From NCBI RefSeq assembly GCF_000013385.1, contig NC_007760.1, positions 1,737,001-1,801,000 of the forward strand: DNA of 64,000 bases, given 5' to 3'. How positions within the stretch are numbered: position 1 is the stretch's first letter; each line of letters begins with the position of its first letter. The translations under genes were made by a program, and so were the position numbers. Below the pieces are notes generated by a model. The model worked only from the letters and a program-made list of their open reading frames with translations. It did not search any database and was not told where the DNA came from. Positions 48,100-48,363 of this stretch are shown here, piece by piece. This DNA comes from Anaeromyxobacter dehalogenans 2CP-C (lineage in GTDB: Bacteria > Myxococcota > Myxococcia > Myxococcales > Anaeromyxobacteraceae).

Positions 48100-48119
48100 G
48101 CGCGGAGGGAGGCGCGACG

Positions 48120-48344
48120 ATGGCGGACGCGGTCGAGATCTACGGCAAGGACGCGTGCCCCTACACGGCGGCCGCGCGCCGGGAGTACGCGGCGCGCGGG
48201 CTCGAGGTGCGGTACTTCGACGTGAAGCGGGATCGCGCCGCGATGGCCCGCTTCCTCGAGCTCTCCGGCGGCGACCGCCGGGTCCCGCTCATCGTGGAGC
48301 GGGGGCGGGTGAGCAGCGGTTTCGGAGGGAGCTGAGGCGTGTGA
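48120..48344 (+). CDS. Glutaredoxin-like small protein, probable selenoprotein of the Uxx-star type (in-frame TGA at 48333 read as Sec)
   Basis: The frame to the first TGA gives 71 residues with a glutaredoxin start: VEIYGKDACPYT places the redox Cys at 13 (CPYT instead of CPYC), and RRVPLIVERG supplies the cis-Pro segment. The product ends in the glutaredoxin-like SSGFGGS, immediately followed by TGA GGC GTG TGA. Reading the first TGA (48333-48335) as selenocysteine gives a 74-residue protein ending Sec-Gly-Val-stop. This is the C-terminal layout after which the Uxx-star glutaredoxin-like (seleno)protein family is named; Cys forms of that family end in Cys-Gly-Val. A SECIS-like hairpin follows at the right distance. 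If Sec is not inserted, the protein stops at 48335 without its second redox residue. Confidence 0.8.
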
Positions 48345-48363
48345 CGGCTCCCGGTCGGGAGCC
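48333..48363 (+). promoter_or_regulatory. Bacterial SECIS-like element (UGA plus hairpin)
   Basis: After the UGA at 48333-48335 come 17 nt to an apical GGUC tetraloop (48353-48356). The loop is closed by a perfect 7-bp stem (GGCTCCC 48346-48352 with GGGAGCC 48357-48363). Bacterial SECIS elements sit directly downstream of the UGA and present GGU-type bases to SelB in the apical loop. In E. coli fdhF the GGUC loop lies 18 nt after the UGA. The bulged U of the E. coli element is not obvious here. Confidence 0.65.

Follow-up and report, generated by a model that had tools for sequence, protein, structure and literature searches.

An in-frame UGA very probably read as selenocysteine in a UXX-star family 1 gene of Anaeromyxobacter dehalogenans, with a SECIS-like hairpin behind the stop codon

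A short gene at positions 48120-48341 of the window (by which we mean the whole stretch of 64,000 nucleotides from Anaeromyxobacter dehalogenans 2CP-C that was analysed) is almost certainly a selenoprotein gene of UXX-star family 1, judging from its sequence and from those of its relatives. Under the standard code, the frame that opens with the ATG at 48120 encodes 71 amino acids and ends at the TGA at 48333-48335; read through this TGA, it yields a glutaredoxin-like product of 74 residues with the C terminus FGGS-U-GV. The original prediction had described a frame ending in GFGGS, TGA, GGC, GTG, TGA and, 17 nt after the first TGA, a GGTC loop on a perfect 7-bp stem. Its coordinates and description proved exact when the sequence was read again, and the stem-loop was confirmed at 48346-48363. 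The accompanying claim that the TGA at 48333 encodes selenocysteine (Sec) in a 74-residue protein is the reading adopted here, because comparison shows the UGA to be kept as a coding position and the hairpin to be conserved by structure, with a stem that covaries, and because the genome carries the full Sec machinery. The features of the locus are as follows.

48104..48112, forward strand: Shine-Dalgarno-like element GGAGGGAGG, read from the sequence, 7 nt upstream of the ATG.
48120..48341, forward strand: predicted UXX-star family 1 selenoprotein gene of 74 codons with Sec as codon 72, matching NF041114; the reading is kept in 22 of 22 relatives.
48156..48158, forward strand: Cys13 of CPYT, where glutaredoxins have their active site; 14 of 22 relatives have TGA (Sec) here.
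48333..48335, forward strand: in-frame TGA, the predicted codon for selenocysteine at residue 72; U in all 22 members from the phylum and in 42 of 44 wider members.
48336..48341, forward strand: GGC GTG, the predicted final two codons, Gly-Val; x-[VIL] followed by a stop in all scored members.
48342..48344, forward strand: predicted true stop codon, a TGA here; other members may have TAG or TAA.
48346..48363, forward strand: predicted bacterial SECIS upper stem-loop GGCTCCC-GGTC-GGGAGCC, backed by compensatory changes in 17 hairpins and by its folding energy.

The GGAAGGAGG version of the Shine-Dalgarno-like element precedes the ATG of a relative (locus L011). When scored with Cys substituted for Sec, the 74-residue product matches the NCBIfam model NF041114 (UXX-star selenoprotein family 1) with 106 bits against a cut-off of 72 and over the entire profile (1-70 of 70), so that the earlier assignment to the Uxx-star family was right and can be narrowed to family 1. 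The related model NF041212 (Uxx-star family) also matches, with 87 bits, as does Pfam Glutaredoxin above its cut-off. The tail expected of family 1, Sec or Cys with two more residues before the stop, reads U-G-V-stop here and ends in x-[VIL]-stop in relatives. The AlphaFold2 model, for which 42 family rows were used (mean pLDDT 93), resembles NrdH-like and glutaredoxin structures over residues 4-70 with Z of about 10, and the structural matches of this predicted model include 7c12 and 3zij (Z 10.0, rmsd 1.7-1.9 over 65-66 residues). These structural alignments leave out the Sec tail (residues 71-74), which may take the place of the first part of the last glutaredoxin helix.

Conservation of the C-terminal UGA was followed in two sets of genomes. 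A true family member was found in 22 of 195 genomes from the phylum. All 22 carry an in-frame TGA within the motif G-[ST]-U-x-[VI]-stop, and the stop two codons after U is TGA 14 times and TAG 8 times. A wider scan, which took one genome per GTDB species and used a search pattern that required Cys at position 13, returned members from Brocadiales and other Planctomycetes, Acidobacteria, Deltaproteobacteria, Nitrospirota, Desulfovibrio and Pelotomaculum. In the 44 wider members scored, 4 of which are Anaeromyxobacter genomes already present in the 22-member phylum set, the residue at the C-terminal Sec site is U in 42, Cys in one and Ser in one, and the final stops are TGA (22), TAG (13) and TAA (9). 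The homologues, whose alignment had been proposed as a check on the Sec reading, thus have U, rarely C, at this site and then x-[VIL]-stop. A position that is either TGA or Cys, with two more codons and any one of the three stops behind it, does not behave like an ordinary stop.

The two natural substitutions both occur in Deltaproteobacteria, as Cys (TGC) at L059:2499-2738 and as Ser (TCA) at L076:3983-4222, and both genes retain the G-V-stop tail. The candidate L049 was rejected as an ordinary glutaredoxin, and Nitrospina-type matches (in part, from L086 onwards) were left uncounted because they have other end points and lack the U-x-x tail. These Nitrospina-type proteins (L086-L129) are glutaredoxin-like and end near GYTGD or GYTGE, some with a TGA stop and others with TAA; they may form a branch in which the Sec tail was lost or never existed. 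Within the genus, 2 of 9 genomes gave no match above the cut-off; one of these two is estimated to be 100% complete and has the Sec machinery, so that the gene is dispensable.

When neighbouring genes were compared across lineages, none was common across phyla and no functional partner could be named; neighbour operons recur inside lineages only. The family gene of Planctomycetes has a heme b synthase-like radical SAM gene as its neighbour. A block in Deltaproteobacteria (L060:2605-7172) comprises an endonuclease III-like gene, ndk (NDK), protoglobin/PsiE, rlmN and an MTA phosphorylase gene, and in Desulfovibrio relatives (L089:2139-3968) a large EF-hand protein, weakly lanmodulin-like, is encoded immediately upstream of the gene.

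Many relatives would carry a second Sec. An in-frame TGA stands at the CPYT cysteine in 14 of the 22 phylum members, giving UPYT, UPHT, USYT and UGYT. By our reading of folds and sequences, the Arg20 codon of these Sec13 members lies in the loop of a hairpin inside the gene. This codon is CGT in 13 of 14 Sec13 members versus 2 of 8 Cys13 members (Fisher p 0.002, uncorrected for relatedness) and in 7 of 39 wider Cys13 members, and CGT accounts for 2.4% of Arg codons in the long GC-rich open reading frames of the window. The Cys13 members with CGT (L013 and L014) are the nearest relatives of the Sec13 member L015 on a weakly supported tree, on which position 13 requires two to four changes. L015 (L015:1501-1725) belongs to the same genus as the window gene and has two in-frame UGAs, for Sec13 and Sec72; the other genus members have Cys13. 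The window gene has Cys13 with CGC at Arg20. As far as these sequences can tell, it is a Cys13 form of a family that often is doubly Sec, and it looks like the descendant of a double-Sec form in which the first Sec was lost, a direction of change that we infer.

Positions 13 and 72 interchange only Sec and Cys, bar one Ser, which suggests either a redox couple or a soft-metal site. The original prediction had named C13 as the resolving partner of U72. This pairing is indirectly favoured by the presence of Sec at position 13 in 14 of 22 relatives, and the bond itself is putative. We consider it somewhat probable that U72 and C13 form a selenenylsulfide and that the protein acts as a small thiol/selenol oxidoreductase. 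The main alternative for its chemistry accepts the TGA as Sec and holds that the protein uses C13 and U72 to ligate or carry a metal or a metalloid such as mercury or arsenic, rather than acting as a disulfide oxidoreductase. Metal-ligand roles for Sec in UXX-star families have been suggested in a 2026 review (PMC13188914), and a pair of U/C13 and U72 would suit soft-metal binding, but the glutaredoxin active-site motif is retained and there are no metal-resistance genes among the conserved neighbours, so we regard ligation as possible but rather unlikely. The oxidoreductase is favoured over the metal site as the predicted function, a choice that the neighbouring genes do not decide.

The hairpin behind the gene has the arms GGCTCCC (48346-48352) and GGGAGCC (48357-48363), which pair perfectly over 7 bp and enclose the loop GGTC (48353-48356). 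It starts one base past the stop codon and lies wholly 3′ of it, with the loop 17 nt from the first TGA and 8 nt from the second. The folding energy is -14.8 kcal/mol with a z-score of about -1, and 24 of 300 shuffles (about 8%) of this GC-rich DNA gave an equal or better stem; taken alone, such a hairpin is weak evidence in GC-rich DNA. Its significance comes from the relatives, which keep its place and its G-containing loop and show compensatory changes. In 17 distinct hairpins of relatives, anchored on their loops, 115 of 119 stem cells are paired, as against a mean of 72 and a maximum of 94 in 5000 trials in which 3′ arms were swapped between relatives; the arms were chosen as the best local hairpin, so that the high paired count is partly a matter of construction and the drop on exchange is the informative part. 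At least two standard pair types occur at 6 of the 7 stem positions. The covariation that had been proposed as a check is thus found among family relatives, and the hairpin is conserved by structure rather than by sequence. This comparison excluded L035 and L037, for which the same rule gave no matching hairpin, and loop anchoring took the place of an earlier MAFFT alignment that was dropped for its uneven start points. The loops of the relatives are GGUC or CGUG-like and mostly start 17-20 nt past the UGA.

A published model of bacterial SECIS elements (PMC13188914) specifies a loop of 3-9 nt with G in the first two loop positions, an upper stem of 4-16 bp, 16-37 nt from UGA to loop and an energy of at most -7.5, and the window hairpin lies within every one of these limits (GGUC loop, 7 bp, 17 nt, -14.8 kcal/mol). 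An Rfam scan of the region returned no SECIS family, only chance matches under the gathering scores. One might still take the TGA at 48333 for an ordinary stop and the gene for that of a 71-residue glutaredoxin-like protein, given that TGA is common as a stop in a GC-rich genome and that shuffling so readily produces a comparable hairpin. We hold this to be very improbable, because different phyla share the two extra codons and the real stop (TGA, TAG or TAA) after them, a Cys codon replaces the TGA in L059, and the stem covaries.

Genes for Sec insertion had also been proposed as something to look for, and all four are present in the same genome (5,013,479 bases): selA with 514.7 bits summed over two pieces, selB with 315.3 bits, selD with 380 bits and an in-frame TGA of its own, and selC (tRNA-Sec) with 76.7 bits, which ARAGORN calls as tRNA-SeC with anticodon TCA. 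The selD locus with its in-frame TGA is L032 (G000:C1:3870998-3871924), and SelD is on the published list of A. dehalogenans selenoproteins. The presence of selA in 22 of 22 carrier genomes, versus 150 of 195 phylum genomes overall, is supportive rather than a formal test, given the relatedness among the genomes. It is scarcely credible that near-cognate suppression inserts some other amino acid at the UGA and that the hairpin is a terminator or chance structure, a reading that can draw on the weak significance of the hairpin alone but is opposed by the similar UGA-to-loop distance in most relatives, by selA in every carrier genome, by the Sec-linked CGT codon at the second, N-terminal site, and by the lack of the U-run that a terminator would need, for which reason we rejected the hairpin as a terminator.

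Under the selenoprotein reading, SelB and Sec-tRNA would bind the GGUC hairpin just past the stop codon, and SelB would decode the first UGA, 17 nt ahead of the loop, as Sec. The hairpin would recode without needing translation by the ribosome, and the second UGA should be left to release factor 2 for termination, since at 8 nt from the loop it is outside the 16-37 nt range. The 74-residue product would adopt a glutaredoxin fold in which a short Sec-bearing tail replaces the usual last helix. More tentatively, we propose that one untranslated hairpin behind a stop codon recodes the UGA at 17 nt and not that at 8 nt, that a redoxin family swaps one Sec for Cys while it keeps the other, and that the pair would act as a Sec-Sec or Cys-Sec redox couple of a kind not known from glutaredoxins.

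This family is already known, as are its tail motif and this kind of recoding. A 2006 survey gave 11 selenoproteins for A. dehalogenans (three FdhA, SelD, three peroxiredoxins, proline reductase, two thioredoxins and a DsbA-like protein), and the window gene is absent from this published list. The original description of the gene as hidden is therefore apt as regards standard calling and the 2006 selenoproteome list; NCBI already models the family. The Sec reading would add a selenoprotein to an organism whose 2006 list is without it, and would give back one of the most conserved residues, which is lost in the truncation made by standard calling. Moreover, the arrangement would leave the SECIS hairpin without any coding constraint and, with two UGAs at different distances from one hairpin, would allow the SelB spacing rule to be tested directly in a gene found in nature. 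Position 13 has changed repeatedly between Sec and Cys with Sec72 staying in place, and the resulting series of members can be used to ask what keeps Sec in these proteins.

Comparison with known systems places the gene as follows. Family 1 is the 'distant Grx-like protein 1' of the 2026 review (PMC13188914), with a UxxT motif and 2 Sec residues; the window protein is like it in its full-length match above the cut-off, in length, in Sec three residues from the end and in its predicted glutaredoxin-like fold, but has Cys at the N-terminal UxxT position and would thus contain one Sec rather than two. The hairpin resembles bacterial SECIS elements in its 4-nt loop starting with GG, 7-bp stem, 17-nt spacing and energy below -7.5, whereas its upper stem-loop lies entirely past the stop and the elements in the same review (PMC13188914) are described as within coding regions. 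The protein shares with glutaredoxins and NrdH-redoxins the fold (Z of about 10 for the predicted model) and a CPYT-type active site, but would have a Sec tail in place of the C-terminal helix. Mammalian thioredoxin reductase, with its C-terminal Gly-Cys-Sec-Gly, has reportedly been produced in E. coli by means of an engineered SECIS behind the Sec codon. That construct likewise places Sec just ahead of the stop and the hairpin at or behind it, but the protein is unrelated, and in the window gene the arrangement is natural.
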